64,000 nt of DNA from Blautia sp. (GTDB taxonomy: Bacteria; Bacillota; Clostridia; Lachnospirales; Lachnospiraceae). The stretch is taken from the NCBI GenBank assembly GCA_026169535.1, contig JAPFCU010000078.1, positions 124,001-188,000 of the forward strand, in the 5' to 3' direction. The position numbers were made by a program, and so were the translations under genes. Every line of letters begins with the position of its first letter. Position 1 is the stretch's first letter. The notes under the pieces were generated by a model that saw only the letters and a program-made list of their open reading frames with translations, ran no database searches and was not told the DNA's origin. This document shows, in pieces, positions 5,455-63,299 of the stretch.

Positions 5455-5466
5455 ATACGGAATCAG

Positions 5467-5540
5467 AAAACCGTTGGATCTGAACATATTTCTGTGATTT
5501 ATATACAGAGAAAAAGTTACAGATCCAGCGGTTTTTGCTT
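5467..5540 (+). terminator. Long-stem terminator after the secreted-protein gene
   Basis: A 16-base arm at 5467-5482 (AAAACCGTTGGATCTG) pairs with 5520-5535 with one mismatch, around a loop of about 37 bases. The right arm ends in TTTT followed by TGCTT. It lies between the convergent genes ending at 5454 and 5567 and may serve both strands. Confidence 0.65.
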
Positions 5541-5566
5541 ATAAAATTTTATACAGACAGATTATT

Positions 5567-6631: not shown

Positions 6632-6730
6632 AGCGTCATCTCCTTATGAAATAAATTTTGACAGATAAGGGGTTCTTATGACAGTATTATACAATAGAAT
6701 CTGGATTTTGTCTCTATCCATGCTGTAAAT

Positions 6731-6767
6731 AAAAATCCTCAAACCGCAATCATGGCAGTTTGAGGAT
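6731..6767 (-). terminator. Rho-independent terminator of the activase-dehydratase gene
   Basis: A perfect 10-bp stem (ATCCTCAAAC at 6735-6744 with GTTTGAGGAT at 6758-6767) has a 13-base loop. Read on the minus strand it is followed by a T-rich run, just after the stop codon of the gene ending at 6783. Confidence 0.85.
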
Positions 6768-6782
6768 CTTTGTGTCGGGAAA

Positions 6783-9700
6783 TTATTCTTTTTTATCTAA
6801 ATTCTTTATTGCAGTGGACAGCATCAGTTTGATCCGGTTCAGCTGGTTTACCTCACTTGCTCCGGGATCGTAGTCAATAGCTACGATATTGGCGCCTGGA
6901 TGAGTCCGGCGTATTTCCTTGATCACGCCTTTGCCCACGATATGGTTGGGCAGACATCCGAAAGGCTGGATGCAGACGATATTCGGTACGCCGCCATTGA
7001 TCAGTTCCAGCATTTCTCCTGTAAGGAACCAGCCTTCTCCAGTCTGGTTGCCCGGAGAGACGATTGGTTCAGCCATTCTGGCAAGATCACGGATGTCTGC
7101 AGCAGGAGAAAAATGACGGCTCTGTTCCAGTGCCTCATTGGCTGCTTTTCTCAGCCAGTCGATGGCCTTGATTCCCCAGTTGGCAACATCGGCTTTGGAT
7201 TTTTTGAATCCAAGATATTCTGATTTAAAATTCTGGTTAAAGAAACAGTAGCTGATAAAGTCGATGAGATCCGGACATACAGCTTCGGCTCCTTCTTCTT
7301 CCAGAAGTTCTGCCAGGTGGTTGTTGGCAGCCGGAAGGAATTTTACAAGAATTTCTCCGACAATTCCTACGCGGGGCTTACGCTGACCAGTAATAGGAAT
7401 CATATCAAAATCATGAACCATTTCTTTGCACAGCTTTTTAAAATGGACATGACTGACACTTCCGCTTTGAATAAAGGCAATAGCTCTCTGTTCCCAGATT
7501 TTATGTTTCCGGTTTACGATGCCTTTTTCCTGTTCGTAAGGACGCATACGGTAAACACATTTCATCAGGATATCTCCAAATACAGCGCCATAGCAGATCT
7601 TTTTTACAAGAGGAAGAGTGAGCTTGAAGCCGGGATTGCTTTCCAGACCGCTTAAATTAAGCGAGATCACCGGAACCTGCTCCATTCCGGCTTTTTTCAG
7701 AGCACGGCGGATAAAAGCAATATAGTTGGAAGCACGGCATCCACCTCCGGTCTGGCTCATGATTACGGCAGTTTTATCCAGATCATATTTACCAGATAAA
7801 AGGGCGTCCATAATCTGTCCTACAACAATCAGAGAAGGGTAGCAGGCATCGTTATTTACGTATTTCAGTCCAACATCCACAGCCTCCCGGTTATCGCTGG
7901 GAAGTACTTCAAAATGATAGCCACAGGTATTAAAAGCCGCCTGGATGATATTAAAATGGAAAGGTGACATCTGTGGGCAGAGGATGGTGTAATCCTTTTT
8001 CATTTCTTTGGTAAAAACAACTTTTTCTATAGAAGCTGGCTGGATCTCGCGTTTTTTATGCTGCTTTTCTTTGGCGCGAAGCGCTGCCAGAAGAGAGCGG
8101 ATACGGATACGGGCGGCACCAAGATTATTTACTTCGTCAATCTTCAAACAGGTATAAATTTTACCGCTTCCGTCCAGAATTTCGTATACTTCATCTGTAG
8201 TAACAGCATCCAGGCCGCAGCCGAAGGAATTCAGCTGGATCAGATCCAGGTCGTCCCGTGTTTTGACAAAGCTTGCTGCTGCATAAAGGCGGGAATGATA
8301 CATCCACTGATCGTTGACGCGGATAGGCCGTTCGATCTTTGCCAGATGAGAGATAGAATCTTCTGTAAGGACTGCCAGCCCGTAGCTGTTGATCAGATCA
8401 GGAATCCCGTGGTGGATTTCCGGATCGACATGGTAAGGACGGCCTGCAAGGACAATTCCCCGGCGTCCTGTTTCCTTAAGGTAGGCAAGAGTTTCTTCGC
8501 CTTTTTTCTCAATGTCGCTTCTTGCGGCAGAAAGTTCTTCCCAGGCCGCATGGGCAGCTTCACGTACCTCTTTTGCGGGAAGTTCCGGAAATACCTGTAC
8601 AAGCCGGTCAGTCAGAACAGCTTCTGAAGTAAAGGCCAGGAAAGGATTACGGAAATCAATATCCTGATCATGGAGCTCATCCACATTGTTTTTGATATTT
8701 TCTGCATAGGAGGTAACGATTGGGCAGTTGTAGTGATTTACTGCATCTGGAAATTCATTTCTTTCATAGGGAATACAGGGATAAAAAATAAATTTGATTC
8801 CCTTTTTCAAAAGCCAGGTTACATGTCCATGAACCATTTTTGCAGGATAACATTCTGATTCGCTGGGGATGGATTCAATTCCCAGTTCATAGATCTTTCT
8901 GGTGGATGTAGGAGAAAGAACCACTTCGTAGTTCAGTTTTGTAAAAAAGGTGAACCAGAAAGGATAATTCTCAAACATGTTCAGCACCCTGGGAATTCCA
9001 ACTTTTCCACGGGAAGCCCGGTCAGGGGAAAGGGGTTCATAAGAGAAGATTCTCTTATACTTGTATTCATACAGGTTTGGTACATGATCTTTGTTTTTTT
9101 CTTTGCCAATGCCCCGCTCACAGCGGTTTCCACTGACAAACTGGCGGCCACCGCTGAATTTATTGATAGTAAGGCGACAGTTATTGGTGCAGCCGCGGCA
9201 GTTTGCCATGGAAGTGCTGTATTTCAGAACATTGATTTTGTCGATAGAGAGCATGGTGGTTTCTTTGCCTTCTTCGTATCTTTCGCGGGCAATTAATGCC
9301 GCGCCAAAAGCACCCATGATTCCGGCAATATCTGGACGGATCGCCTGGCAGTCCGCTATTTTTTCGAAGCTTCTCAAAACAGCATCATTATAGAAGGTTC
9401 CGCCCTGAACAACAATATGTTTTCCAAGTTCAGAAGCATCTGAAACTTTTATTACCTTATAAAGGGCGTTTTTTATTACAGAATAAGCCAGCCCGGCAGA
9501 AATATCAGAAACCTCCGCGCCTTCTTTCTGCGCCTGCTTTACTTTGGAATTCATAAAGACGGTGCATCTGGTTCCAAGATCGATGGGATGCTCAGCAAAA
9601 AGAGCAGCTTTTGCAAAATCCTGCACGCTGTAGTTCAGAGACTTTGCAAAGGTTTCGATAAAGGAACCACAGCCCGAGGAACAGGCTTCATTAAGCTGTA

Positions 9701-46973: not shown

Positions 46974-47109
46974 GTATGAAAAAAAGATTTATACTAGTAT
47001 AACGAATAACAGAAACTTGGTTTTTATTATACTGGAAAGATAAAAAGTATTTGTGCACAGGAAAATAATCGGACTGCACAGATTTATAAATAAAGGTGAT
47101 GCATTACAA

Positions 47110-47814
47110 GTGGGGAAAAAACAGAAAAGAAACAGGGCAGAGCTTTATTCTCTTCTTCTTCTGGCCGGCGGGAAAAGCAGCCGGATGGGAGAGGATAAGG
47201 CAGGACTTCTTCTGAATGGAGAGAGCTTTCTTTCCTGTCAGATAAAAAAAGCGGAGAAGCTGGGAATCCGGGAGGTTTATGTTTCCGGTCATAATGTTGG
47301 AGAATGTGTCTTCCGGAACGAAAAAATAAAAAGCAGCATACATATCCAGGTGATTTCTGATATTTACAGGGAACGGGGACCGTTAGGCGGACTTCATGCC
47401 TGTATGAAGACCATGGATACTCCTTATTGTCTGGTACTTCCGGTGGATGTGCCTCAGCTTCCGGTGAAGATGCTGGAAGATTTACTTCTTGTTCATGAGG
47501 ACAGACTGGACGCAGTGGATACTGAAGATTTTAGACATTTTGGGTATGAAAGAGCGGGCGGCAATGCCGGGAAGCCTTTGCTGGCGGTGCATGGAGAAAG
47601 AACTGAGCCTTTGATGGGCATTTATCCCACCTGTATGGCAGACTGTATCGGGGAGCAGATACAAAAAGCTTCCGCGCCGGTGTTTCGGATCCTTGATGCA
47701 TGGGGGTATGACACCTGCCGGATTTCCGTGGAGGAATGGCAGATTCAAAATATTAATACGCCGGAGGATTACCGGGAGCTTTTAACGCATATGGAAAAGA
47801 GGAATGAGAGATGA
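47110..47814 (+). CDS. mobA: Molybdenum cofactor guanylyltransferase (MobA)
   Basis: The product (234 residues from GTG 47110) has the nucleotidyltransferase signature LLLAGGKSSRMGEDKAGLLL of MobA, which adds GMP to molybdopterin to make the guanine dinucleotide form used by formate dehydrogenases. Later text VISDIYRERGPLGGLHACM and LPVDVPQLP fits. The GTG is chosen for an AAAGGTGAT site nine bases upstream; another GTG at 47053 is in frame but without a clear site. The gene overlaps moeA by four bases and lies two genes upstream of the formate dehydrogenase that needs this cofactor. Confidence 0.88.
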   Translation: MGKKQKRNRAELYSLLLLAGGKSSRMGEDKAGLLLNGESFLSCQIKKAEKLGIREVYVSGHNVGECVFRNEKIKSSIHIQVISDIYRERGPLGGLHACMKTMDTPYCLVLPVDVPQLPVKMLEDLLLVHEDRLDAVDTEDFRHFGYERAGGNAGKPLLAVHGERTEPLMGIYPTCMADCIGEQIQKASAPVFRILDAWGYDTCRISVEEWQIQNINTPEDYRELLTHMEKRNER

Positions 47815-49022
47815 GAGAGGAAATTTTGCTTGAGGATGCTCTGGAAGAAATTAAAAAGCGGGCGAAGAGGATCACAGACACAAGAAAAGCAGCAGTAAGG
47901 GAGTCTGGAGGATTTTGTCTGGCAGAGGATGTTTATGCGGGAATAGACAATCCGCCTTTTTCACGTTCTCCGGTGGATGGTTATGCAGTCCGGGCGGAAG
48001 ACATAAGGGGGGCTGTCCGCGGAAATCCGGCCAGACTTCAGGTGGCAGGATGTATTTATGCGGGAGATGACGGACAATCCTTTCAGATGAATCCTGGAGA
48101 AGCTTATCGGATCATGACGGGAGCTCCCTTTCCGCAGGGAGCGGATACTGCTGTTAAGCAGGAAGATACAGACTATGGCGAGGATGTGGTGGAAATCTAC
48201 AAAAGCCAGAAGCCATGGGATAATTACTGCTTTCAGGGAGAGGATTATAAAAAAGATAGTCTTCTTCTGAAAAAAGGCTCCCGGATCACCTTTGCGGAGC
48301 AGGGAATCCTTTCTGGTATAGGCCGCACAGATGTAGAGGTTTACCGGAAACCGGTGATAAGAGTACTGACTACAGGAGATGAGCTTTGTGAGCCGGGAAG
48401 CCCTTTGAAGCCGGGAAAGATTTATGATTCCAATGGGATGATGGTGTCTGCACGTCTTTGTGAGCTGGGGGTGCCTCCCAAGTCGGTATCTCACTGTGCA
48501 GACAGTGAGGAGGGGATGGCGGAGGAGCTGAAAAAAGCAGCAGAAGATGCGGATATTATTATTACTACTGGCGGTGTTTCTGTAGGAAAAAAGGATATTC
48601 TCCACGGGGCTCTGGAAATTCTCGGGGCAGAAAAAATATTCTGGAGGATCCGTCTTCAGCCGGGAACCCCTACACTTTTTTCTGTATATAAGGGTACTCT
48701 GATCCTGTCTCTTTCAGGTAATCCTTTTGGGGCAATGGCAAATCTGGAACTTCTTCTTCGCCCTGCGCTGGAAGTGATGACAGGAGATTCTGCATTTGCT
48801 ATGGAAATGCGCCGGGGGATCATGGAGGAGAGTTTTGAAAAAAGATGTCGGGTACGGAGGTTTGTCAGGGCTGTGTATAGAGACGGTAAAGTTACCTTTC
48901 CTCAGGGAATCTCTTCTTCTGGAGCTATCGGTACGTTGCGGGGCTGCAACTGCCTGCTGGACATTCCGGCAGGCAAGGAAAACGTAAAAGCCGGAGAGCA
49001 GGTGGCAGTGTGGATGCTGTAA
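47811..49022 (+). CDS. moeA: Molybdopterin molybdotransferase (MoeA)
   Basis: This 403-residue enzyme inserts molybdate (or tungstate) into adenylylated molybdopterin. It has NPPFSRSPVDGYAVRAEDI near residue 45, the MTGAPFPQGADTAVKQEDT region, TTGDELCEPGSPLKPGKIYDSN and the TTGGVSVGKKD motif, then SLSGNPFGAM. The length is normal. Its ATG overlaps the mobA stop (ATGA), and the mobB start lies 13 bases before its own stop. Confidence 0.93.
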   Translation: MREEILLEDALEEIKKRAKRITDTRKAAVRESGGFCLAEDVYAGIDNPPFSRSPVDGYAVRAEDIRGAVRGNPARLQVAGCIYAGDDGQSFQMNPGEAYRIMTGAPFPQGADTAVKQEDTDYGEDVVEIYKSQKPWDNYCFQGEDYKKDSLLLKKGSRITFAEQGILSGIGRTDVEVYRKPVIRVLTTGDELCEPGSPLKPGKIYDSNGMMVSARLCELGVPPKSVSHCADSEEGMAEELKKAAEDADIIITTGGVSVGKKDILHGALEILGAEKIFWRIRLQPGTPTLFSVYKGTLILSLSGNPFGAMANLELLLRPALEVMTGDSAFAMEMRRGIMEESFEKRCRVRRFVRAVYRDGKVTFPQGISSSGAIGTLRGCNCLLDIPAGKENVKAGEQVAVWML

Positions 49023-49522
49023 AAAAAACGGAGAAGCCTTTTGTGGCGGCGGTAAGCGGTATAAAAAATTCCGGCAAAACCACCTTTCTGGAAAAACTGG
49101 TACTGGAACTGACGCAAAGAGGATATCGTGTGGCGGTAATTAAGCATGACGGTCATGAGTTTCAGGCAGACAGGGATGGGACAGATACTTATCGGATGCA
49201 GCAGGCGGGGGCATACGGAACCTGTATTTTTTCCAAAGGACAGTGGCAAATGGTAAAAAAACAGCCGGATGTGAAAGTGGAGGAGCTTATAGGATTTTTC
49301 CCTGAAGTGGATTTTATCCTGCTGGAAGGAATGAAGGAATCCCTTTTTCCAAAATTTGAGTTGGTACGAAAAGGTATTTCCCAGAAGAGTGTCTGTGATG
49401 CAAAAACTCTTTTAGCACTTGTTACAGACACCGGATTAAGACTGCCGGAAATTATGACTTTAAATCCAGATGAAATCGAAAAGGCAGCAGATATTCTGGT
49501 GAAAGTTAGTATAAACAAATGA
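49010..49522 (+). CDS. mobB: Molybdopterin-guanine dinucleotide biosynthesis adaptor MobB
   Basis: A 170-residue P-loop GTPase-like protein with Walker A SGIKNSGKTTFLEKL and the family motif VIKHDGHEFQADRDGTDTYRM. MobB supports MobA in making and delivering the dinucleotide cofactor. It overlaps moeA and is followed by a terminator, closing a three-gene cofactor unit directly upstream of the formate dehydrogenase cluster. Confidence 0.9.
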   Translation: MDAVKKTEKPFVAAVSGIKNSGKTTFLEKLVLELTQRGYRVAVIKHDGHEFQADRDGTDTYRMQQAGAYGTCIFSKGQWQMVKKQPDVKVEELIGFFPEVDFILLEGMKESLFPKFELVRKGISQKSVCDAKTLLALVTDTGLRLPEIMTLNPDEIEKAADILVKVSINK

Positions 49523-49680: not shown

Positions 49681-51870
49681 ATGGCTTTAAAACAAGTCCA
49701 GACAACCTGTGCGTATTGCGGAGCAGGCTGCCAGATCATGTTCACAGTCGATACAGATGCAAACAAGATTGTGGAAGCAGTCCCTGCAGACGGCAGAACT
49801 AATGCGGGAACCCTCTGTCTGAAAGGTCATTACGGCTGGGATTATCTGAATGATCCCCAGATTCTTACGAAACGTCTTCGTAAGCCGATGATCCGTAAAG
49901 GCGGAAAAAAATCACCTCTCGTAGAGGTTTCATGGGAGGAGGCAATCTCCTATGTAGCGGAACGCCTGGGAGAGATCAAGGAAAAATATGGTCCGGATTC
50001 CATTATGGGAACAGGTTCTGCAAGAGGAGCCGGCAACGAGGCAAATTATCTGATGCAGAAATTTATGCGCGCGTGCATTGGCACCAACAATGTCGATCAC
50101 TGCGCCCGAATATGACATGCGCCTTCGGTAGCGGGTCTACTGTATTCTTTAGGTTCAGGCGCAATGTCAATGGGCATCCCGGAAATTGAGGATGCAGGCT
50201 GTTTACTTTGTTTCGGCTATAACGGAGCAGATTCCCATCCAATTGTCGCAAGACGTATTGTCCGAGGCAAACAGAAGGGAATGAAGATCATCTGTGCAGA
50301 TCCGCGTGTGACAGAAACCGCACGTATTTCAGACATCCATCTGCAGCTTAAGGGAGGTTCCAACCTTGCCCTGGTAAATGCAATGGCAAATGTGATCTGG
50401 AATGAGGGACTGGCAGATACCAGATTTATTGAAGAACACACAAAGGGATTTGATGAATTCCTGAAGGTGATTGAAAAATATACACCGGAATATGCAGAAC
50501 CGATCACACACATTCCGGCAGATGAAATACGCAGGGCGGCAAGAATGTATGCCACTACCAAACCTGCCATGATTCTTTATGGTATGGGTGTCTGTCAGTT
50601 TACGCAGGCAGTGGATGTGGTCAAAGGGCTTGCAAACCTTGCACTGATGACAGGAAACTTTGGCGGTCCGTCTATGGGTATCGGTCCGGTACGCGGACAG
50701 AACAATGTACAGGGAGCCTGTGATATGGGTGCTCTTCCAAACTCTTATCCGGGTTATCAGAATGTGACGGTACCGGAGATTCGTGAAAAATTTGAAAAGG
50801 CATGGGGTGTGCCTCTGTCTGATCAGGTGGGCTGTCCTATTACCCATGTACCACACAGAATCCTTCATGAGAAGGATGAAAAGAAGAGAATCCATGCATA
50901 TTACATATTCGGAGAAGATCCGGCACAGTCAGATCCTGATCTGGCAGAGGTCAGAGAAGCTCTTGATAAATGTGATTTTGTTGTTATGCAGGATATCTAT
51001 ATGAATAAGACAGGTCTTTATGCAGACGTGATCCTTCCTGCTACTGCCTGGGGTGAGAACGAAGGTATTTATACCTGTGCAGACCGTGGCTTCCAGAGAG
51101 TCCGTAAGCTGATTGAACCAGAAGGCGATATGCGTCCGGACTGGAAGATCATTGCAGATATCTCCACAGCTATGGGTTATCCTATGAATTACAGAAATAC
51201 GGAGGAGATCTGGAATGAAATGATCGATCTCTGTCCAAGTTTTACCGGTGCAACCTACGAAAAAATCGAAAAATACGGTGGCGTTCAATGGCCGTGCCGT
51301 GACAAATCCATGGAGGACAGAGGAACGCCTTATCTTCATAAGGATGGTATTTTTGCTACAAAAGATCATAAAGCTCTGTTTTATGGTACAGACTGGCATC
51401 CGCCGGTGGAACTGGAAAATGACCAGTATCCCATGACACTTTCCACGGTTCGTGAAGTAGGTCATTATTCTGTGCGTACTATGACAGGAAACTGCCGCAC
51501 CCTGCGGAATCTGGAGGACGAGCCGGGATGGGTACAGATGAATACTCAGGACTGTGAAAAGATGAGGTTGAAAAAAGGAGAGCTGGTTAAGATTCTTTCT
51601 AAGAGAGGATACTGTATTACCAGATGCCTTCCTACAGATCGTGTAAAACCCGGTGCAACCTATATGACTTATCAGTGGTGGATCGGAGCCTGCAATGAGC
51701 TGACAACAGCCAAACTGGATCCCATCAGTAATACTCCCGAGTACAAATACTGTGCCTGTCGTGTAGAAAAGATTCAGGATCAGGAATGGGCAGAACGTCA
51801 TGTGAGGGAATTGTATGATGATATCCGCGCCCAGATGGGTATCGATACGGGAAAGGGGGCAGAAGCATGA
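49681..51870 (+). CDS. fdhF: Selenocysteine-containing formate dehydrogenase (FdhF), HDCR catalytic subunit
   Basis: Read through the in-frame TGA at 50113-50115, this is one 729-residue formate dehydrogenase with selenocysteine at 145. The reading frame is the same on both sides and the junction NVDHCARI-U-HAPSVAGL matches the active site of FdhF, including the following His. Residues 12-50 hold the [4Fe-4S] site CAYCGAGCQ ... CLKGHYG; the rest is the bis-molybdopterin fold with the MGD-binding C-terminal domain (about 600-729). A SECIS-like hairpin lies 11 bases after the TGA, and selA, selB, selD, tRNA-Sec and fdhD are within 13 kb. In HDCR this subunit interconverts CO2 and formate. It overlaps the next gene by four bases. 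Confidence 0.95.
50113..50141 (+). promoter_or_regulatory. Selenocysteine codon and SECIS element of fdhF
   Basis: TGA 50113-50115 is followed, after 11 bases, by a hairpin GGTAG (50127-50131), loop CGGGT and CTACT (50137-50141). The GGGTCT around the loop resembles the SelB-binding AGGTCT loop of E. coli fdhF, and the spacing from the UGA is the same. Confidence 0.8.
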
Positions 51871-52406
51871 ATTACTTTGTAAAAGGGAACCCTGACCTTT
51901 GTATCGGCTGCCGTACCTGCATGATCGGATGCGTAGTAGCCCATGAGGGAAAGCATATCTTTGAGGTGGATCCGGATTCCTATAGCTTTAATCCGAAACT
52001 TCATATGGTAAAAACAGCGCGCTTAAGTGTTCCGGTACAGTGCAAGCACTGTGAAAATCCGGCATGCATGGCAGTGTGTCCGGCAGGCGCCATTTCCCAG
52101 AAAGACCACTGTATTGTCATTGATACAGATAAATGTATGGGATGTAAATCCTGCATGGATGCATGTCCGTTCGGTGCCATTAATATGACAGTTCAGACAG
52201 GAAAATTCCAGGCGGACGGATCTGAGAAAAAAGTGGCAAACAAATGCGACCTTTGCTATGGACTTCCGGGAGGACCAGCCTGTGTAAGAGTCTGTCCTAC
52301 AGAAGCTTTGACTCTTGTAACAGAGGAGAAATTGGGAGAAGCCATGGAACATAAACGTATGGAAGCTGCCAGAAATACGTATCGGGAAACGCATCCGCAG
52401 GAATAG
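51867..52406 (+). CDS. Four-cluster ferredoxin subunit (HycB/HydN-like) of the formate-hydrogenase complex
   Basis: A 179-residue polyferredoxin with four Cys groups: CIGCRTCMIGC (12-22), CKHCENPACMAVCP, CMGCKSCMDACPFGA and CDLCYGLPGGPACVRVCP. This is the four [4Fe-4S] plan of HycB-like electron carriers. Its start overlaps the fdhF stop, so the two are coupled. In HDCR two or more of these link formate dehydrogenase to hydrogenase; this one is the likely FdhF partner from its position. Confidence 0.92.
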   Translation: MNYFVKGNPDLCIGCRTCMIGCVVAHEGKHIFEVDPDSYSFNPKLHMVKTARLSVPVQCKHCENPACMAVCPAGAISQKDHCIVIDTDKCMGCKSCMDACPFGAINMTVQTGKFQADGSEKKVANKCDLCYGLPGGPACVRVCPTEALTLVTEEKLGEAMEHKRMEAARNTYRETHPQE

Positions 52407-52420
52407 GAGGTCATAAAGCG

Positions 52421-52984
52421 ATGAAAAAAGAAATCGGGTCTTTTGTGGTGGGAGACAGTACCAAATGTACTGGCTGCAAAGCCTGTGAGGTGGCCTGCTT
52501 CACTGTCCATAACCGCAAAAGCAATCATGTTGGAAATACAGTGGGAACCGTTACGGTTCCCGTAACCCCAAGGCTGTTCCTGACCAGATTTGATCAGGGG
52601 TGTATGCCGATCCAGTGTAAGCACTGTGAGGATGCGCCATGTCTGAATGCGTGCAGCAAGGGAGCCATCAGCCGGATCGACCATCAGGTGATTGTAGATG
52701 CAGAAAAATGCATTGGCTGCAAGGACTGTATGCAGGCATGTCCTTTTGGTGCCATTGCGCTTCTTCCTTATGCGAAGGACGGACGTCTGGTGGCACAGCC
52801 AATGTCTGAGGAGCCAAAAGTCTTTGCATCCAAATGTGATCTCTGTGCAGGGATTGAAGGCGGCCCTGCCTGCGTAAGAGTCTGTCCTCATCAGGCGCTC
52901 AGACTGGTGGATCCGGAAGCGGAGCGGGAAGAAAAAAATATCAGGGCAGCAGAGTCACTGCTTCTGACAAAAGACTGGAGATAA
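52421..52984 (+). CDS. Second four-cluster ferredoxin subunit (HycB/HydN-like)
   Basis: At 187 residues it repeats the plan of the preceding gene: CTGCKACEVAC, CKHCEDAPCLNACSKGA, CIGCKDCMQACPFGA, CDLCAGIEGGPACVRVCP. The C-terminus adds a charged helix (DPEAEREEKNIRAAESLLL). In the HDCR of Thermoanaerobacter kivui a C-terminal helix of one HycB builds the filament, so this tail is a candidate for the same role; that is inference. Ribosome site AGGAGGTCATAAAG. Confidence 0.92.
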   Translation: MKKEIGSFVVGDSTKCTGCKACEVACFTVHNRKSNHVGNTVGTVTVPVTPRLFLTRFDQGCMPIQCKHCEDAPCLNACSKGAISRIDHQVIVDAEKCIGCKDCMQACPFGAIALLPYAKDGRLVAQPMSEEPKVFASKCDLCAGIEGGPACVRVCPHQALRLVDPEAEREEKNIRAAESLLLTKDWR

Positions 52985-52999
52985 GGGAGGACAAAATTC

Positions 53000-54358
53000 A
53001 TGATAGTAGCAATTGATCAGAATCTCTGTACCGGCTGCCGTGAATGTGCAGAAGTCTGTCCTGCCTATGCCATTGTAGGCGAACAGGGACAGCCTCAGAC
53101 TATTGATACAGACAGATGCGTGATGTGCGGACAGTGCGTGCAGAAATGTAAATCTTATGTATCCATTCTGACCCATGGAAAAAAAGCCTACGACAGAGTC
53201 AAAAAAGAAAGAAACATTCCGGATTCTGTTCAGGAGCCTCTTTTTGCAGCGTATGCGGTCTGCAATCTGGATAAAGTAAAAGAAGCTCTTGCAGATAAAA
53301 ATAAATTTACCATTGTACAGTGCGCACCGGCAGTCCGAGTTGCCATTGCAGAAGAATTTGGCGAAGATCTGGGAACACTGACACCCGGAAAATTATCTGC
53401 GGCTCTTCATACCCTGGGATTTGACAGGGTGTACGATACCAACTTTCCGGCAGATGTGACCATTATGGAGGAAGGTACGGAGCTTGTGAAGCGTGTAACA
53501 GAAGGCGGCGTTCTTCCAATGTTCACCTCCTGCTGTCCGGCCTGGGTAAAATTCCTTGAGAACAACTATCCGGAGCTTGCCGATCATCTGTCCTCGGCAA
53601 AAAGCCCTCAGCAGATCGGCGGAGCCATTTTCAAAACATACGGGGCACAGCTGGAAGGCAAAGAAGGAAAGGATATTTACAGCGTGTCTGTAATGCCCTG
53701 TACTTGTAAGGAATTTGAAAGCGGTCGTCCGGAAATGAAGGACAGCGGCTTCCGTGACGTAGACGTGGCCATTACCACCAGAGATCTGGCATGGCTTATT
53801 AAAGATATGGGAATTAACTGGGATGATCTTGAGGATCAGGAGTTTGACCAGCCGCTGGGACTGTATACCGGTGCCGGAACAATCTTTGGCGTTACCGGCG
53901 GCGTTATGGAAGCGGCCATTCGTACCGGTTATGAGCTTGTGACCGGACAGCCGATTCCGGATCTTGAGGTAACAGCTGTTCGTGGAACAGAGGGGTTCCG
54001 TACCTCTGTGATAAAAGTAGGCGATCTGGATCTGAAGGTGGGAGTTGTTACCGGGCTGAAAAATGTAATTCCGGTTCTGGAGGCAGTAAAAAATGGAACC
54101 CTGGATCTTCATTTTATTGAGGTAATGACCTGTCCGGAAGGCTGTGTCAGCGGAGGCGGACAGCCGAAGCTTCTTATGGATACGGACAGAGAAGAGGCTT
54201 ATGCGGCAAGAAGGGCGGCAACCTTTGCCCATGACAGAGAACTGACCTACCGTAAATCCCATGAAAATCCGGCGATCAAAAAGATTTATGAGGAGTTTTT
54301 AGAGGAACCAAACAGTAATATTGCCCATCATTTACTGCATACAAAGTATTGCATTTAA
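53000..54358 (+). CDS. hydA2: [FeFe] hydrogenase, HDCR HydA2-type
   Basis: The 452-residue enzyme has two N-terminal [4Fe-4S] sites (CTGCRECAEVCPAYA and CVMCGQCVQKCKSY) and the three H-cluster motifs: TSCCPAWVKFLE (about 176), MPCTCKEFE (about 233) and EVMTCPEGCVSGGGQP (about 373). It lacks the longer N-terminal 2Fe-2S domain of bifurcating hydrogenases, which agrees with HydA2 of HDCR. It would supply electrons from H2 through the two ferredoxin subunits to CO2 reduction. It closes the four-gene cluster with short gaps and a strong terminator region. Confidence 0.93.
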   Translation: MIVAIDQNLCTGCRECAEVCPAYAIVGEQGQPQTIDTDRCVMCGQCVQKCKSYVSILTHGKKAYDRVKKERNIPDSVQEPLFAAYAVCNLDKVKEALADKNKFTIVQCAPAVRVAIAEEFGEDLGTLTPGKLSAALHTLGFDRVYDTNFPADVTIMEEGTELVKRVTEGGVLPMFTSCCPAWVKFLENNYPELADHLSSAKSPQQIGGAIFKTYGAQLEGKEGKDIYSVSVMPCTCKEFESGRPEMKDSGFRDVDVAITTRDLAWLIKDMGINWDDLEDQEFDQPLGLYTGAGTIFGVTGGVMEAAIRTGYELVTGQPIPDLEVTAVRGTEGFRTSVIKVGDLDLKVGVVTGLKNVIPVLEAVKNGTLDLHFIEVMTCPEGCVSGGGQPKLLMDTDREEAYAARRAATFAHDRELTYRKSHENPAIKKIYEEFLEEPNSNIAHHLLHTKYCI

Positions 54359-54462: not shown

Positions 54463-54488
54463 AAAACAGCGGCATGCTGTTTTTTTTA
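54463..54488 (+). terminator. Rho-independent terminator of the formate-hydrogen cluster
   Basis: AAAACAGC (54463-54470) pairs with GCTGTTTT (54476-54483) around GGCAT and runs into TTTTT. The interval 54359-54660 holds this and the hairpin before it; no gene is supported there. Confidence 0.75.
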
Positions 54489-55765: not shown

Positions 55766-56469
55766 ATGAGTATCATAAAAAACGAAATTCCCATATTGGA
55801 GTTTGATACAGAACAAAATGCAGTGCTCAGCCCCACACATGAAAATCTGGATATCAGGCTTCCAAATAAATGTGTCTTTGCCTTTCTGGCAGGCTATATT
55901 GATGAATATGCCAGAAAGAACAATTTAACACAGGCAGCGCAGTTTATTAGTGCAACGAAAGATTATCCCATTTACATAGCCAAACATAAGGGGGAAGAGG
56001 TGGCCCTTTGCCAGGCTCCTGTAGGAGCGGCTCCTGCGGATGTCTGAAAGCATTTCCTGAAGGAACTTTTCTTGTACCCTACAGGGCGCTGCGGGATGAA
56101 GGAACTTCCTATCATTATGCGCCGCCGTCGCGTTTTATAGAAACCAATAAAAGAGCAAGAAAAGCTATTGAAGAAACTATTTTGGAACACGGCATGAAAT
56201 ATCAGGAGGTGACTACCTGGTCAACCGATGGTTTCTATCGTGAAACGAAAGAAAAAGTCGAATATCGGAAAGGCGAGGGCTGTTCTGTTGTTGAAATGGA
56301 ATGTTCGGCCCTTGCTGCATGCTCATCTTTTCGCCGGGCTGACTGGGGAATGATCCTTTATACTGCTGACAGTCTTGCAGATGTTGAGCAATATGATGAG
56401 CGGAATTTTGGCGGAAACGCATATGAATATGCACTGCTGTTATGTCTAGATGCGGTAGTGAAGATGTAA
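55766..56469 (+). pseudogene. Nucleoside phosphorylase, broken by an internal deletion
   Basis: Two frames give the start and end of one nucleoside (uridine-type) phosphorylase. The first (55766-56047) runs LEFDTEQNAVLSPTHENLD to CQAPVGAAPA, then hits a stop; the second continues from GSCGCLKAFPEGTFLVPYR through SYHYAPPSRFIE and VVEMECSALAA to KM at 56469. About 25 residues between GAAPA and GSCG, part of the substrate loop, are gone. The break lies on GGCTCCTGCGG (56029-56039), which reads A-P-A in one frame and S-C-G in the other, as expected if a deletion joined two copies of a short repeat. The catalytic scaffold is lost, so the gene is dead. Confidence 0.82.
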
Positions 56470-56514: not shown

Positions 56515-57756
56515 ATGAGATTTCTAAAAAAACATTTTTCTATGTACAGTCATTTACCAAAAGAAATCTATGTACTGGCTTTTGGCAAGATCATGACAAG
56601 CATGGGCGCTTTAATATGGCCCATGCTCACTTTGATCATGAGTGAAAAGCTGGGTCTGAATGGACAGACCATCGGTCTGTATATGATGATATTTTCTTTG
56701 TTCATGGGACCGTTTTATTTACTGGGAGGCAAACTGGCTGATAAATATAATAAAAAGAATATTATCGTCACCTTTGACTTGATCGGAAACAGTTTGTACT
56801 TTGTTTGCGCTGCATTGCCCATGTCTATGACTACACTGTATTTGTTAGCCATTGCTTCCTTGTTTCAGTCCATGGAGCAGCCCGCCTATGATGCGCTGAT
56901 TGCTGATCTGACAACCTACAGGGACCGGGAAAGAGCATATTCCCTGAATTATCTTGCAATGAATTTGGGATTGGTTATGGCTCCGACTATTGGGGGTATT
57001 TTATTTAATAATTATCTTAATATTTCCTTTTTTATTAACGGGCTGGCAGACATATCCAGTACGCTGTTACTGCTGTTCTTCATTAAGAATGTACGAACTG
57101 CTGATTTGGATAATAAAGCATGGAACGAATATGAAAAAGGTGAAACAGGATCAATATTCAAGGTGTTTTCTCAGCGTAAGTTATTCTTTTTGCTGTTTGT
57201 GATCTCAGGTATAGCGGCGCTGATCTATAATCAGTATAATTTTTTGATGCCTTTACATATGGAAGAAGCTTTTCGTGGCTCAGGCGCTTTTCGCTTTGGA
57301 ATTTTAACGAGTATCAACGCTGTTGTGGTGGTTATAGGTACGCCTATACTGACACAAAAGTTTTCTAAAGTCATAGATGTCAGAATTATGTATTTGGGGC
57401 AGCTGCTGGAATGTTTAGGGCTTGCCTTTTTTATTTTTGTAAATCATTATTTTATAATCGCTGTTGCGGGAATGATTATATTTACCATAGGAGAAATATT
57501 TGGTTCCATATCAAAAACGCCTTATCTTACAAAGAGAATACCGGAAACACATCGCGGACGAGTATTAAGTATTACAAGCAGCTGTGCCGGATTAATTGGA
57601 ATATTAAGCAACTATGTAATAGGAACTCTTATTGACCATTATACATTCAGCACTGTATGGGGGATCATTGCCGCAGTAGGATTATTTGTGATGATTCTAT
57701 ACAGCATTTATTTAAAACTGGACAGAAAGGCTTATCCTGGTCTTTATTCAAAATAA
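56515..57756 (+). CDS. MFS-family transporter
   Basis: The 413-residue protein has about 12 membrane segments. The first cytoplasmic loop shows GGKLADKYNKKNII, the family's second-third helix motif. Residues 200-215 form the central loop. It resembles drug or metabolite exporters of the MDR type, but the substrate is unknown. ATG 56515 is supported by GATGGGGAAATTCT upstream. It is the last gene of the AT-rich insert before selB. Confidence 0.85.
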   Translation: MRFLKKHFSMYSHLPKEIYVLAFGKIMTSMGALIWPMLTLIMSEKLGLNGQTIGLYMMIFSLFMGPFYLLGGKLADKYNKKNIIVTFDLIGNSLYFVCAALPMSMTTLYLLAIASLFQSMEQPAYDALIADLTTYRDRERAYSLNYLAMNLGLVMAPTIGGILFNNYLNISFFINGLADISSTLLLLFFIKNVRTADLDNKAWNEYEKGETGSIFKVFSQRKLFFLLFVISGIAALIYNQYNFLMPLHMEEAFRGSGAFRFGILTSINAVVVVIGTPILTQKFSKVIDVRIMYLGQLLECLGLAFFIFVNHYFIIAVAGMIIFTIGEIFGSISKTPYLTKRIPETHRGRVLSITSSCAGLIGILSNYVIGTLIDHYTFSTVWGIIAAVGLFVMILYSIYLKLDRKAYPGLYSK

Positions 57757-57848
57757 GTTTCCCTATAGTAAAAAAATTTTGCCTGTGGTATGATTGTATA
57801 GGAAAACAGACCAGAAAACATTGTTGGTCTTTAACAGAGGTTAATCTC

Positions 57849-59771
57849 ATGAAATATGGAATTATAGGAACTGCAGGTCATGTAGATCACGGAAAAACCT
57901 GTCTGATCAAGGCTCTGACCGGAATTGACACGGACCGTCTGAAAGAAGAAAAAAAACGTGGAATCACAATAGAACTGGGGTTTGCCTGGATGGATTTCCC
58001 AGGGGGAGAACGTGTGGGGATCGTGGATGTGCCAGGTCATGAAAAATTTGTAAAAAACATGCTGGCCGGTGTAGGAGGCATGGATCTTGTAATGCTGGTG
58101 GTTGCTGCTGATGAAGGTATTATGCCCCAGACTGTGGAGCATCTGGATATTCTGTCTACCCTTGGAATCCGTCAGGGAATTATTGTGATCACCAAAACAG
58201 ACCTTGCAGATCCGGAGCTTGTGGAACTTGTTGAAGAGGATATACGGGAGCTGACGGAAGGAACCTTTCTGGAAAACGCTCCGGTGATCCCTGTATCCGT
58301 ATATAAGAACCAGGGATTGGATCAATTAAAGAAAATTTTGTACCAGATGTATCAGAAGCTGCCGGATCATAAAGAAACCCGGGCTTTCCGGCTTCCGGTA
58401 GACCGGGTGTTTACACTGAAAGGGTTTGGAACAGTTGTCACAGGCACACTTCTGGGCGGAAAAATAAAAAAAGAGCAGGAAGCATTTCTCTATCCGGAAA
58501 ATGTTCCCGTAAAGATCCGGAGCATTCAGGTACATGAACAGGGAGTAGAGGTTGCTCATGCAGGACAGCGTGTGGCGCTGAATCTTCCAGACCGTAAAAA
58601 AGAGGAGATTTCAAGGGGCGATGTGATCGCTTTCAAAAACAGTCTGTATCCGTCCATGATGGCAGATGTGTCTCTGACTGTTCTGCGTCATACAGAGCGT
58701 GTAGTAAAAAATGGAAGCAGAGTTCATATTTATCATGGAACAAAAGAACTTCTGGGGAAGGTGATCCTTCTTGACCGGGAGGAACTGAAGGCGGGAGAAA
58801 CCTGCTATGCTCAGCTGCGTCTGGAGGACGAAACGGTAATGGAAAAAGGCGACCGTTTTGTGATCCGTTTTTATTCCCCGGCAGAGACCATTGGAGGAGG
58901 ATGTATTCTTGACGCCTGTCCCCGTAAGCATAAAAGAAAGGATCCAAAAGTCCTGGAGGCCTGTGGAATCAAAGAAAAGGGAACAGGTGCGCAAATGCTG
59001 GAAACCTCAATTCTGGAGCACAGAGGCTGCTTTTATTCTCTGGAGGAACTGGCAGGAAGAAACTCCCTGGACAGATCCGGGCTGAAAAATACAGCGGCAA
59101 AGCTGACAGAAAAAGGAATTCTGGTGTGTCTGGAAGAAGGCCTTTATATTCACAGAGAAGAAATGAATTTTTATTGCAGAAAAACAGAGCGTATTCTGGA
59201 TGATTTTCATAAAACTTATCCTTTGAAAGAGGGAATGGGGATCGAGGAGCTGCGCAGCAGACTGAAACTGGAAAATTCCAGGATCACAAACGATATACTG
59301 GAAGTACTGAAAACTCAGAAGGTCATCAAGGAACAAAACGGCTGTGTCAGCAAAAAGCGTTTTAAAGTGGTACTGAAGGAGGATGAGGATGCCATCGTAC
59401 AGGAAATCCTTGCGCACTATCTGGAATCCGGTTTTTCCCCTCTTGCCACAGAACTGTATCTGAAGGAGCACAGAAACCAGAAGAAATTTAAACCGGTATT
59501 TACCTCTCTTTTAAATAAAAAAATCCTGATCCGTCTGGATGAGCAGTATTGTATCCATAGGGATTATTACGAAAGAGGAAAAGAAGCTTTCCGGGAAATG
59601 GCACAGAAGAAAGAGAGTATCGCTCTTGGAGAGTACAGAGACTATCTGGGATGTTCAAGAAAGGTAGCGGTGGCCCTTCTGGAGCATTTCGACAAAAATG
59701 GTTTTACAAGAAAGAAAGAAGAAGGACGAGTCCTGAAAGATTCCGGCAAACAGCGTCCTGATCGAACATAA
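57849..59771 (+). CDS. selB: Selenocysteine-specific translation elongation factor
   Basis: A 640-residue GTPase that brings Sec-tRNA to the ribosome at UGA codons with SECIS hairpins. It opens [19 protein letters not shown] (P-loop), has [10 protein letters not shown] (switch I), [14 protein letters not shown] (switch II) and TKTDL. Domains II and III cover about 180-340; residues 380-640 are the winged-helix repeats that bind the SECIS hairpin. ATG 57849 gives the family start MKYGIIG; the open frame to 57657 is not part of the protein. Ribosome site ACAGAGG. It heads selB-selD-selA. Confidence 0.94.
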
Positions 59772-59825
59772 GGGCAGCTTTAAAAGAATACGATAGCCGG
59801 AAATTATGGAAGGGAGATGAGAATT

Positions 59826-60863
59826 TTGGCAGATAAAGAAATTCGTTTAACACAAATGTCAAGTACATCCGGCTGAGCGGCTAAAAAAGGTCCTAAGACC
59901 CTTGCTCAAGTTTTGAGCAAGCTGCCGAAATTCAGTGATCCCATGCTTTTAGTGGGAACAGAGACCTCAGACGATGCTGCGGTCTATAAAATTAATGACG
60001 ATCTGGCAATGATCCAGACGGTTGACTTTTTTACCCCGGTTGTGGATGATCCGTATCTGTTTGGACAGATTGCTGCGGCAAATGCCCTAAGCGACGTATA
60101 TGCCATGGGAGGTGAGCCCAAAGTGGCTCTGAATCTGGCTGCATTTCCGGACTGCCTGGATATAGAGATTCTTGGCGAAATCCTGAAAGGCGGAGCGGAC
60201 AAGGTGATAGAAGCAGGAGCAGTGCTGGCAGGCGGACATACAATCTCTGACAACGAACCGAAATATGGGCTGTGTGTCAGCGGATTTGTAAACCCGAAGC
60301 TTATGTGGAAAAACTATGGAGCAGAAGCAGGAGATGTTCTGATCCTTACCAAACCACTTGGTACCGGCATTCTTTCTACAGCTATCAAAGGAGAACTTGC
60401 TTCAGAAGACGAAATTGAAGCAGCTGTGAAAAATATGACTTTTCTGAATCGGTACGCAAGGGATATTGCAGCAGAATTTTCCATTCACAGCTGTACGGAT
60501 ATTACAGGCTTCGGAATTGCGGGACATGCTATGGAAATGGCAAAGGGAAGCGGAAAAACCCTGGTTCTGGATACCGGAAGTTTTCCGGTTCTTCAAGGAG
60601 TACAGTCCTATACAGAAATGGGATTGATTCCGGCAGGTGCATACAGGAACAGAGAGTATCTGGAAGAAGATGTAGAAAGTCAGATTCCGGGAACCTGGCT
60701 GGAGGATCTGGCATATGATCCGCAGACATCAGGCGGATTGCTTCTCTCTGTACCGAAACAGGAGGCCGCCTGTCTTCTGGATAGGCTAAAAACTTTGGAA
60801 CTTCCCTGTTCGCAGATTGGAGAAGTAAGGGAAAAACAAGAAAAATATTTGATTCTGAAATAA
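59826..60863 (+). CDS. selD: Selenide, water dikinase, itself a selenoprotein
   Basis: SelD makes selenophosphate from selenide and ATP. The frame contains an in-frame TGA at 59874-59876, flanked by TQMSSTSG and AAKKGPKTLAQVLSKLP, exactly the catalytic position (Cys or Sec 17 in E. coli numbering). Thus the protein is 345 residues with Sec at 17, not the shorter piece starting at 59913. A hairpin follows 12 bases later. TTG 59826 is chosen because GGGAG is nine bases ahead; ATG 59817 is in frame but overlaps that site. Other motifs: TSDDAAVY, VDFFTPVVDDPY, LAGGHTISDNEPKYGL. SelD thereby depends on its own product. Confidence 0.93.
59874..59900 (+). promoter_or_regulatory. Selenocysteine codon and SECIS-like hairpin of selD
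   Basis: TGA 59874-59876 is followed after 12 bases by GGTC (59889-59892), loop CTAA, and GACC (59897-59900), with A-T pairs extending the stem. The spacing equals that in fdhF. The stem is short, and the loop differs from the fdhF loop. Confidence 0.65.
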
Positions 60864-60878
60864 GAAAATGAGAAAATT

Positions 60879-62330
60879 ATGGATAAAAATAAAATCTTAA
60901 GACAGCTTCCAAAGGTAGACCGCCTTCTGGAAGAACCAGAAAGCGCAGAGCTCTGCAGACAATATGGCAGAGAAAGGACAATAGAGGCTTTTCGCGAAGC
61001 GCTGGATGTTTTTAGAAATCAGATTCTTCATGGAGAAGAAGGACTGGAGGAGCTTTCAGGAAAAACAAAAGAGATAAAACCAGAAAGGCTCCAGGCCTGG
61101 ATCTTTGACAGAAGCCAAACCAGGCTCATGGAATCGGATACCTCTTCTTTTCAAAGAGTTCTGAATGCTACAGGAGTGATTCTTCATACAAATCTTGGCC
61201 GGGCGCCTATGGGGGAGCATCAAAAATCAGCAGTAATGGAAGCTATGTGGGGATACTCAAACCTGGAGTATGAACTTTTACAAGGGAAAAGAGGACATCG
61301 CCAATCTCATTATAAAGACCTAATCTGCCAGATCACAGGAGCGGAGGATGCTGTGGCAGTTAATAATAACGCTGCCGCAGTAAGTCTGATCCTTGGAGCT
61401 ATGGCAAAAAAAAAAGAAGTGGTGGTTTCCAGAGGGGAGCTGATAGAAATTGGAGGGCGCTTCCGCGTTCCTGATGTAATGGAACAAAGCGGAGCCATTT
61501 TAAGAGAAACAGGCTGTACCAACCGGACAAGGATTTCAGATTATGAAAAAGTTATCTGGGAAGAAACTGCTGCTTTATTAAAGGTTCATACAAGTAATTA
61601 CAAGATTGTGGGCTTTACGGAAGAAACACCAGTAAAGGAACTGGCACAGTTGGGAAAAAGACATGGGATCCCGGTGATCGTAGATCTTGGAAGCGGTGTT
61701 TTGGTGAATCTGGAAAAATATGGACTGGCTCATGAGACTACAGTTCAGGAAGTATTGAAAGAGGGAGCAGACGTGGTCTGTTTTTCCGGCGACAAACTTC
61801 TGGGCGGCCCCCAGGCAGGGATTATTGCCGGAAAGAAAAAGTACATAAAAGCTATAGAAAATCATCCAATGATGCGTATGCTGCGTCTGGATAAGTTTAC
61901 TACAGCAGCTCTGGAAGCTACGTTCCGAGAATATCTGGATGAAAAGAATGCCTGGGCGAATATTCCTGTATTGCAGATGATTGCCAGAGGTGAAGAGGAA
62001 CTGCGTTTACAGGCAGAGATGATTATAAAGGAACTGGGGGAAGGGGGATATCCTGGCAGAATCACCTTAGAAAAAAGCCGTTCCGCAGTAGGAGGAGGTT
62101 CCCTTCCGGGAGAGGAAATGCCGGATTACGCTGTGGTAATAGAGCCGAAAGAGGAAAGAGCAGAGGAGCTTTCGTGCCGTCTTAGAAGGCTTCCGCTGCC
62201 TGTGATCGGTCATATAAAAAATGAAAAAGTGTGGTTGGAGATGCGTACAATCTCTGCGGAAGAAGCCTCCCTGCTGGCAAACGCTCTGAAAGAAGCTCTC
62301 TTTCATAAAAAAAGAGCTGTGGAAATATAA
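60879..62330 (+). CDS. selA: L-seryl-tRNA(Sec) selenium transferase
   Basis: The 483-residue PLP enzyme converts Ser-tRNA(Sec) to Sec-tRNA(Sec) with selenophosphate. It has NATGVILHTNLGRAPMGEHQ, the VNNNAAAVSLIL loop and the PLP-lysine in FSGDKLLGGPQAGII. N-terminal helices (1-80) bind tRNA-Sec. It starts 15 bases after selD; the ribosome site is weak (GAGAA). The gene ends in a sequence that on the other strand forms the terminator of the tRNA-Sec gene. Confidence 0.95.
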   Translation: MDKNKILRQLPKVDRLLEEPESAELCRQYGRERTIEAFREALDVFRNQILHGEEGLEELSGKTKEIKPERLQAWIFDRSQTRLMESDTSSFQRVLNATGVILHTNLGRAPMGEHQKSAVMEAMWGYSNLEYELLQGKRGHRQSHYKDLICQITGAEDAVAVNNNAAAVSLILGAMAKKKEVVVSRGELIEIGGRFRVPDVMEQSGAILRETGCTNRTRISDYEKVIWEETAALLKVHTSNYKIVGFTEETPVKELAQLGKRHGIPVIVDLGSGVLVNLEKYGLAHETTVQEVLKEGADVVCFSGDKLLGGPQAGIIAGKKKYIKAIENHPMMRMLRLDKFTTAALEATFREYLDEKNAWANIPVLQMIARGEEELRLQAEMIIKELGEGGYPGRITLEKSRSAVGGGSLPGEEMPDYAVVIEPKEERAEELSCRLRRLPLPVIGHIKNEKVWLEMRTISAEEASLLANALKEALFHKKRAVEI

Positions 62331-62350: not shown

Positions 62351-62448
62351 TGGCGGATGCCTGTGAGAATCGAACTCACCCAGGGCGCTCTTAACGTCCA
62401 GCACAGGTTTTGAAGACCAGGGGGCACACCAGTTACCCAACGACATCC
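62351..62448 (-). tRNA. selC: tRNA-Sec (anticodon TCA)
   Basis: On the minus strand a 98-base tRNA runs from GGATGTCG at 62448 to an encoded GCCA at 62354-62351. The anticodon loop is CTTCAAA (TCA at 62413-62411), the T arm is GTGAG-TTCGATT-CTCAC, and a long variable arm (GGACG...GCGCC) is present, as in tRNA-Sec. The acceptor has seven pairs plus a G-A eighth position, and the anticodon stem CTGGT/ACCTG has one T-T mismatch. It is convergent with selA and divergent from fdhD. Confidence 0.92.
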
Positions 62449-62495: not shown

Positions 62496-62576
62496 TAGAG
62501 GGCAATGGGAAAAGATAAGCCTGGCTGTAGACCGCAGTTCGCATCGGTTACAGTCATGGCATCAGAAAGGATTTTT

Positions 62577-63299
62577 ATGAAAAAAACAGAGATATCCATT
62601 CAGAAAATAACAAATAATGATTTTTTGGAATGCATAGATATGGCTGCGCTGGAAGCAGTGTACGACGTATATCTGAATTGCAGCAAAGAATTTCGGATCA
62701 GTTGTACCCCGGAGAATCTGGAGGAACTGATCATGGGCCGCCTTTATACAGAAAACAGGATCAGTGGGACGGAAGAAATGAAAGAAATTATCATCCGGGA
62801 GCAGGAAAAGGAAATTCATATAAAAACTGAAAAAGAAGCCGGAGAAAGCCAGAAGAAGAACCAGGGGAAAAAAAAGTGCTATGAGGGAGAGGCTATGACG
62901 CTTTTTGCTGCGGCAGATAAAATTTTTGAAAATCCGGGAGAGCTTTTCAGAGAAACAGGCTGTGCCCATTGCTGCGCCTTATGGAAGGACGGGGAGATCC
63001 TTTGCTGCTTTGAGGATATTGGCCGTCATAATGCTTTGGACAAAGCAGTAGGAAGGGCGCTTCTTCAGAGGGTATCTTTGGAAGACTGCGTAGTTTTTAC
63101 CAGCGGAAGAGTTTCTTCCGATTATCTTCAAAAGATTGTTCATGCAGAAATCGGAACAGTGGTTTCCAGGGCGGCAGTTACAGATCTTGCAGCAGATCTT
63201 GCACGCAGAAATAAAATAACACTTTATGGTTTTGTAAGAAAAGGAAAGGGAAACTGTTATTCAAAAGAAACGTTTTCTGGGAAAGGAGTATCTGCATGA
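62577..63299 (+). CDS. fdhD: Formate dehydrogenase accessory sulfurtransferase FdhD
   Basis: FdhD passes sulfur from IscS-type desulfurases to the molybdenum cofactor of formate dehydrogenase. The 240-residue protein shows the catalytic Cys pair in GCAHCCALW (about 129-137) and the family segment FEDIGRHNALDKAVG, then VFTSGRVSSD. ATG 62577 follows AGAAAGGA at good spacing; the open frame to 62505 crosses the tRNA-Sec promoter region. Its stop overlaps the next start by four bases. Confidence 0.9.
   Translation: MKKTEISIQKITNNDFLECIDMAALEAVYDVYLNCSKEFRISCTPENLEELIMGRLYTENRISGTEEMKEIIIREQEKEIHIKTEKEAGESQKKNQGKKKCYEGEAMTLFAAADKIFENPGELFRETGCAHCCALWKDGEILCCFEDIGRHNALDKAVGRALLQRVSLEDCVVFTSGRVSSDYLQKIVHAEIGTVVSRAAVTDLAADLARRNKITLYGFVRKGKGNCYSKETFSGKGVSA

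Follow-up and report, generated by a model that had tools for sequence, protein, structure and literature searches.

The window analysed here is a stretch of 64,000 nucleotides from a Blautia sp. of the Lachnospiraceae (assembly GCA_026169535.1, contig JAPFCU010000078.1, positions 124,001 to 188,000), and the system in question is a cluster of four genes at positions 49681-54358 of its plus strand, which together form the gene set of a hydrogen-dependent CO2 reductase (HDCR): a formate dehydrogenase, two polyferredoxins and a hydrogenase. The first gene, fdhF (49681-51870), recognized from its open reading frames (ORFs), an NCBIfam profile, a PDB match and a tree, encodes a selenocysteine (Sec)-containing formate dehydrogenase of 729 residues. 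It is followed by hycB-a (51867-52406) and hycB-b (52421-52984), coding for four-[4Fe-4S] polyferredoxins of 179 and 187 residues, the former in the HycB3 position (profiles, cysteine count and a structural model) and the latter HycB4-like (PDB match and cysteine count), and by hydA2 (53000-54358), coding for a short [FeFe] hydrogenase of 452 residues belonging to the HDCR clade (NCBIfam, PDB match and tree). The fdhF stop is overlapped by 4 bases by hycB-a, hycB-b begins after 14 bases and hydA2 after another 15. This spacing agrees exactly with a first-pass annotation of the same DNA, which had described a one-strand cluster with gaps of at most 16 bases, and its further claim that the genes stand in the order of the T. 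kivui HDCR is borne out by the order published for that organism (PMC7005907). As the identical order on a single strand is kept in 13 other loci (L037-L045 and L047-L050), the succession of four genes of the same complex is not a matter of chance.

The hydrogenase scores 422.2 bits against the NCBIfam family FeFe_hydrog_A (cut-off 405.95), and its best solved relative is the HydA2 of the T. kivui HDCR (658.9 bits, the next scoring 381.7), to which it is 64% identical over the whole length. It has two N-terminal groups of four cysteines in addition to the cysteines of the H-cluster. The first-pass annotation had made its reading depend on the hydrogenase falling within the HydA2 clade, and this is where it falls: in a tree of 80 rows, hand-picked from 126 with near copies and B. 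schinkii left out, 58 HydA2 and 22 HydA1-type rows are split by one branch with a support of 100, and the protein from the window lies on the HydA2 side, within a 14-row Lachnospiraceae set also supported at 100. Among the best 80 of 273 relatives across genomes, the closest are from Lachnospiraceae S14_Bin1 (97% identity) and Blautia caecimuris DSM 29492 (94%), followed by several Blautia metagenome-assembled genomes (MAGs), B. schinkii (74%) and Acetobacterium (71-72%), with further versions in C. difficile, Treponema and Adiutrix. The host is accordingly taken to be a Blautia species close to B. caecimuris.

The two polyferredoxins contain 17 cysteines apiece, 16 of which fall into four groups of four. 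While HycB-b has the HycB4 of the T. kivui HDCR as its best solved relative (205.5 bits), HycB-a matches HycB4 and HycB3 at 120.5 and 113.5 bits, respectively, a difference which is not decisive; since pairwise scores favour no HycB3 match, the assignment of a HycB3 role to HycB-a rests on its position. An AlphaFold2 model of HycB-a built on 27 rows (mean predicted local distance difference test score 73.5) contains a C-terminal helix at residues 153-175; the C-terminus of HycB-b is conserved in a 27-row alignment of its own. The C-terminal helices of HDCR polyferredoxins mediate filament formation (PMC10413684), and the modelled helix is consistent with what would be expected of such a protein, which is not a demonstration of filaments.

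Under translation table 11, fdhF is broken into ORFs of 144 (49681-50115) and 568 residues, whereas reading its in-frame TGA (50113-50115, identified from comparative codon rows) as Sec yields the single 729-residue protein, with Sec at residue 145 in the context HCARIUHAPSV. This protein scores 836.7 bits against the NCBIfam family Fdh-alpha TIGR01591 (cut-off 666.25) and is of the bis-pyranopterin guanine dinucleotide type with one [4Fe-4S] cluster and a catalytic Sec, as expected of an HDCR. Across the fdhF rows of related loci the Sec site is occupied by TGA in 42/60 and by cysteine codons in 18/60. A second sign of TGA being decoded as Sec here comes from the selD gene of the locus, whose frame is likewise interrupted by a TGA, at the U of an SGU motif. 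Downstream of the Sec codon lies a putative bacterial Sec insertion sequence (SECIS) hairpin (50126-50142, from a comparative motif), with a stem of six pairs, the loop CGGGT and a GGTCT motif. When 31 distinct Sec rows, including that of the window, are compared with 18 cysteine rows, the rows within each set being related, GGTCT at +22 to +26 is present in 29 of the Sec rows, the six-pair stem in 22 and the string GTAGCGGGTCTA in 21, while none of the three occurs in any cysteine row. Rfam does not report the element at gathering level, and synonymous reshuffling of the window alone gives a weak signal (0.051 for the six pairs and 0.016 for the pairs with GGTCT); what speaks for the putative SECIS is the comparative result among these related rows.

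The affinities of FdhF differ from those of HydA2 and HycB-b. In pairwise comparisons it scores 923 bits against E. coli formate dehydrogenase H (FDH-H) as opposed to 644.7 bits against T. kivui FdhF. In a tree of 55 rows, it groups with the FdhFs of HDCR loci from Lachnospiraceae, Acetobacterium, Adiutrix and Treponema, while the T. kivui protein, that of locus L095 and the second formate dehydrogenase of L089 are set across a branch with a support of 100 from the other 52 rows; E. coli FDH-H is placed on the FDH-H-like side formed by those 52. On sequence grounds, FdhF is of the Sec-type FDH-H/Acetobacterium kind, unlike that of T. kivui. The resemblance to the T. kivui HDCR, which the first-pass annotation had drawn for the gene order, extends to HydA2 and to HycB-b as HycB4, and does not extend to FdhF, whose grouping with Acetobacterium HDCR loci argues for an enzyme of the A. 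woodii type; the A. woodii HDCR is described as containing molybdenum and Sec, and that of T. kivui tungsten and no Sec (PMC6288185, which also lists HDCR clusters). Closeness to E. coli FDH-H was considered as a possible mark of a formate-hydrogen lyase and rejected, because FDH-H falls among the FdhFs of HDCR loci: those encoded at HydA2 loci of Acetobacterium, Treponema, C. difficile and other organisms share its side of the tree.

The HydA2 and FdhF trees conflict for L116, L095 and T. kivui (PDB 7qv7): the HydA2s of T. kivui and L116 are sisters with a support of 98, whereas forcing their FdhFs together in a 30-row tree is rejected by the approximately unbiased test (p-AU 2.7e-61), as is grouping the FdhFs of HDCR loci without E. 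coli (p-AU 3.6e-7), in constraint tests whose groups were chosen after the first FdhF tree and in the presence of long branches. Outside HDCR loci, the FdhF trees sample E. coli FDH-H and three large formate dehydrogenases of the genus. From these sequences, FdhF looks to have been exchanged between HDCRs, which is a lead and no proof.

The genome to which the window belongs (2.61 Mb in 85 contigs) was searched for Wood-Ljungdahl genes. Contig C17 carries cooS, acsB, the gene for the gamma subunit of the corrinoid protein, acsE, acsV and FchA- and FolD-like genes (the fchA and folD matches lying under the NCBIfam cut-offs), along with a HydABC-type hydrogenase. Elsewhere are fhs (910.5 bits), metF (134.7), pyruvate formate-lyase (PFL; 1149), the H-cluster maturase HydG (945) and three rnfC matches above cut-off. 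The first-pass annotation had left undecided whether the organism is a full acetogen; its gene content is that of a Wood-Ljungdahl acetogen. Two side observations concern related enzymes: locus L139 of this genome carries a monomeric [FeFe] hydrogenase (7412-8914, minus strand; TIGR04105, 610.6 bits) adjoining the acs/HydABC cluster, and on contig C28, at about 85.5-90.4 kb, a frame of 1167 residues with weak FdhF similarity adjoins one of 593 residues with ferredoxin and RnfC-like matches. By resemblance, this pair may represent a Nfn/Stn-like complex of the Sporomusa type.

The cluster is best read as an HDCR, because HydA2 and HycB-b have the T. kivui HDCR as their best solved relatives and HydA2 lies in the HDCR clade. 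We put at roughly 90% the probability that the four genes encode a soluble HDCR which feeds the Wood-Ljungdahl pathway and is served by flanking supply genes. Its assembly, electron path, activity and reversibility would follow those of its relatives: the H-cluster of HydA2 would split H2, the electrons would pass over the two [4Fe-4S] clusters of HydA2 and the HycB polyferredoxins to the Mo/Sec site of FdhF, and CO2 would there be reduced to formate, which formyl-tetrahydrofolate synthetase could hand to the Wood-Ljungdahl pathway encoded in the genome. As the interconversion of H2 plus CO2 with formate would lie near equilibrium, it could run both ways, and formate derived from PFL or from neighbours could leave as H2 and CO2. 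Several points weigh against this reading: FdhF falls outside the T. kivui lineage in both the 55-row tree and the 30-row tests; the scores of HycB-a are much the same for HycB3, for HycB4 and, within NCBIfam, for HydN/AegA; the SECIS hairpin folds no better than shuffles (z 0.17, 0.56 and -0.14); and the genome is 89.75% complete.

The alternative that survives best retains the complex and changes its role in the cell, with the enzyme acting as a soluble formate-hydrogen lyase which disposes of PFL formate as H2 and CO2. The presence of PFL, the suggestion of such a role for HDCR in Paenibacillus (PMC6288185) and the inclusion of E. coli HydN and FDH-H among the relatives of HycB-a and FdhF all fit it; against it, fhs, acsB, cooS and metF provide an obvious use for formate, and the acsB family accompanies HDCR in 11/13 genomes of the genus. 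As the principal role, disposal seems rather unlikely, and production and disposal may both occur. It is far less probable that FdhF serves ferredoxin or another partner, with the hydrogenase a separate enzyme sharing the operon: although the A. woodii HDCR also accepts ferredoxin (PMC6288185), here HydA2 belongs to the HDCR hydrogenase clade, FdhF and HydA2 occur in the genus only together, and their genes are separated by those of two HycB linkers. A formate-hydrogen lyase proper, or an electron-bifurcating formate dehydrogenase-hydrogenase of the C. autoethanogenum type, is scarcely credible despite the resemblance of FdhF to FDH-H, given that HydA2 is a short [FeFe] form, that the bifurcating-type HydABC lies elsewhere, on C17, and that, as the first-pass annotation had argued from the absence of membrane subunits, none of the ORFs examined next to the cluster encodes a Hyc membrane, [NiFe] hydrogenase or NuoE/F-like subunit (HycE was not searched for genome-wide).

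The flanks of the HDCR cluster contain genes which would supply its cofactor, Sec insertion and maturation. Upstream on the plus strand lie a mobA-like nucleotidyltransferase gene of molybdenum-cofactor synthesis (47053-47814; from profiles, under the NCBIfam MobA cut-off), moeA, with MoeA domains for molybdenum insertion (47811-49022; profiles), and mobB (49010-49522; TIGR00176, 128.2 bits with a cut-off of 76.2). Downstream, also on the plus strand, are selB (ORF 57657-59771; 404.8 bits with a cut-off of 242.25), whose true start is probably internal, residue 69 being the first that the family match covers, selD (59817-60863; profiles), with its own in-frame TGA (59874-59876) in SSTSGU, selA (60879-62330; profile) and the formate dehydrogenase maturation gene fdhD (62505-63299; profile), with a tRNA-Sec on the minus strand between the last two (62351-62448; RNA scans). 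The selD gene is hence itself a selenoprotein gene, which ORF calling under table 11 starts wrongly at a TTG at 59913. Of the ORFs examined 3' of hydA2, two encode GNAT acetyltransferases and the others a phosphorylase-type fragment, an MFS transporter and SelB; the fragment (56008-56469) contains a partial PNP_UDP_1 domain (profile positions 75-202 of 233) and is perhaps a broken gene. A scan also placed a terminator-like hairpin with a T run 3' of hydA2 (54463-54483, plus strand), while across the region such sites are not in excess (10 against a shuffle mean of 7.6) and a promoter scan was uninformative (13 sites against 12.8 in shuffles).

Across 64 genomes of the genus, 16 contain a match to HydA2 at E 1e-120, of which 13 are HydA2 (74-100% identity) and three are HydA1-type (52-54%). 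FdhF matches at 1e-150 occur in 23 genomes, 13 of them at 77-100% identity with one TGA each (in genome G201 the match covers residues 144-729 only), the other ten being frames of 902-971 residues with 41-47% identity. FdhF at 77% or more and HydA2 at 74% or more are found in the same 13 genomes, never one alone. Further, selB scores above cut-off in 23/64 genomes, comprising 12/13 of those with HDCR and 11/51 of the others (Fisher p 4.3e-6, indicative only as the genomes are related); the HDCR genome lacking it, G200, is 78% complete, and its contig ends 419 bases away from HydA2. For 11 of the 13 HDCR genomes, selB is on the contig and strand of hydA2, 31 to 5523 bases downstream. The acsB family is present in 45/64 genomes, two with weak matches. 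An order-wide search of 196 genomes, one of them another member of the genus, yielded no other HydA2-grade match, the next scoring 405 as against 1047 bits.

The neighbourhood was compared in eight of the twelve further HDCR genomes: mobA-moeA-mobB lies directly upstream of fdhF in six and selB downstream in all eight, while argH-argC precedes mobA in the window and in four of them. In a scan of 30 HDCR loci, many of them incomplete, tRNA-Sec was found in eight. In these eight genomes the core HDCR proteins are conserved (FdhF at 77-98%), as against 34-92% for mobA, 48-68% for selA and 34-55% for fdhD. A recent transfer into this lineage alone is not supported, with 12 further genomes of the genus carrying the cluster and argH-argC shared upstream in four of the eight compared; set against this is the lack of another HydA2-grade match in the order-wide search. 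We tentatively propose, at somewhat short of even odds, that the Blautia HDCR is an accessory cassette with its own supply chain (mobA-moeA-mobB, selB-selD-selA, tRNA-Sec and fdhD), and that acquiring or losing it would move a species between formation of formate from H2 and CO2 and reliance on PFL or neighbours for formate, and would largely decide whether Sec decoding is kept. Among HDCRs at large, FdhF appears to be a replaceable unit carried by a HydA2/HycB scaffold.

The Blautia cluster is a further example of an established system, and the parts worth following are its linked selenium-molybdenum cassette and patchy distribution. Blautia is a common gut genus, in which Wood-Ljungdahl pathways without a formate dehydrogenase have been described; pathways of this kind are common (PMC11338639), and some MAGs of ruminant acetogens contain hycB, fdhF and hydA2 (PMC12449052). 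A description of the Blautia island was found neither in the available literature joining Blautia and HDCR nor in what was available of PMC12773636, PMC10213532 and PMC9124964, which is not proof of its absence from print. Sec-type fdhF genes are present at the HDCR loci of Blautia schinkii DSM 10518 (L051, 4674-6848) and Clostridioides difficile (L059, L062, L063 and L065, about 5183-7304). PMC10103890 and PMC11338639 place strains of both species among those lacking the enzyme; either different strains are concerned, or the genes may have gone unnoticed because of their in-frame TGA. A patchy, paired and selenium-linked FdhF-HydA2 trait (13/64) separates likely formate makers from likely users, a split that could be put to the test in culture, for instance with B. 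caecimuris DSM 29492 (L038), which has the same cluster, and B. luti or B. wexlerae, which lack it, and the cluster would offer biochemistry a predicted mesophilic Sec-type HDCR with the compact T. kivui-like order.

Among the known systems, the A. woodii HDCR shares the subunit set and the Sec of FdhF, at position 139 (PMC6288185) versus 145 in the window. A. woodii itself is not among the loci compared; in A. bakii, A. paludosum and A. tundrae, the Sec copy of FdhF encoded at the HDCR locus shares about 72% identity with that of the window. Unlike the window's cluster, which is free of insertions and whose genome has one fdhF at that grade, these Acetobacterium loci (L053, L054 and L096) contain a second, Cys-type fdhF, an extra hycB and an fdhD between the hycB genes. 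The T. kivui HDCR shares the order fdhF-hycB3-hycB4-hydA2 and differs in its Cys-type FdhF, outside the 52-row FDH-H-like clade, and in having fdhD directly after the cluster as opposed to about 8 kb downstream. Within the genus, B. schinkii, whose Fdh is known to be active (PMC11338639), has an fdhF with a Sec TGA, 77% identical, together with two hycB genes and hydA2; unlike that of the window, its cluster encloses fdhD, and its moeA/mobB occupy the opposite strand.

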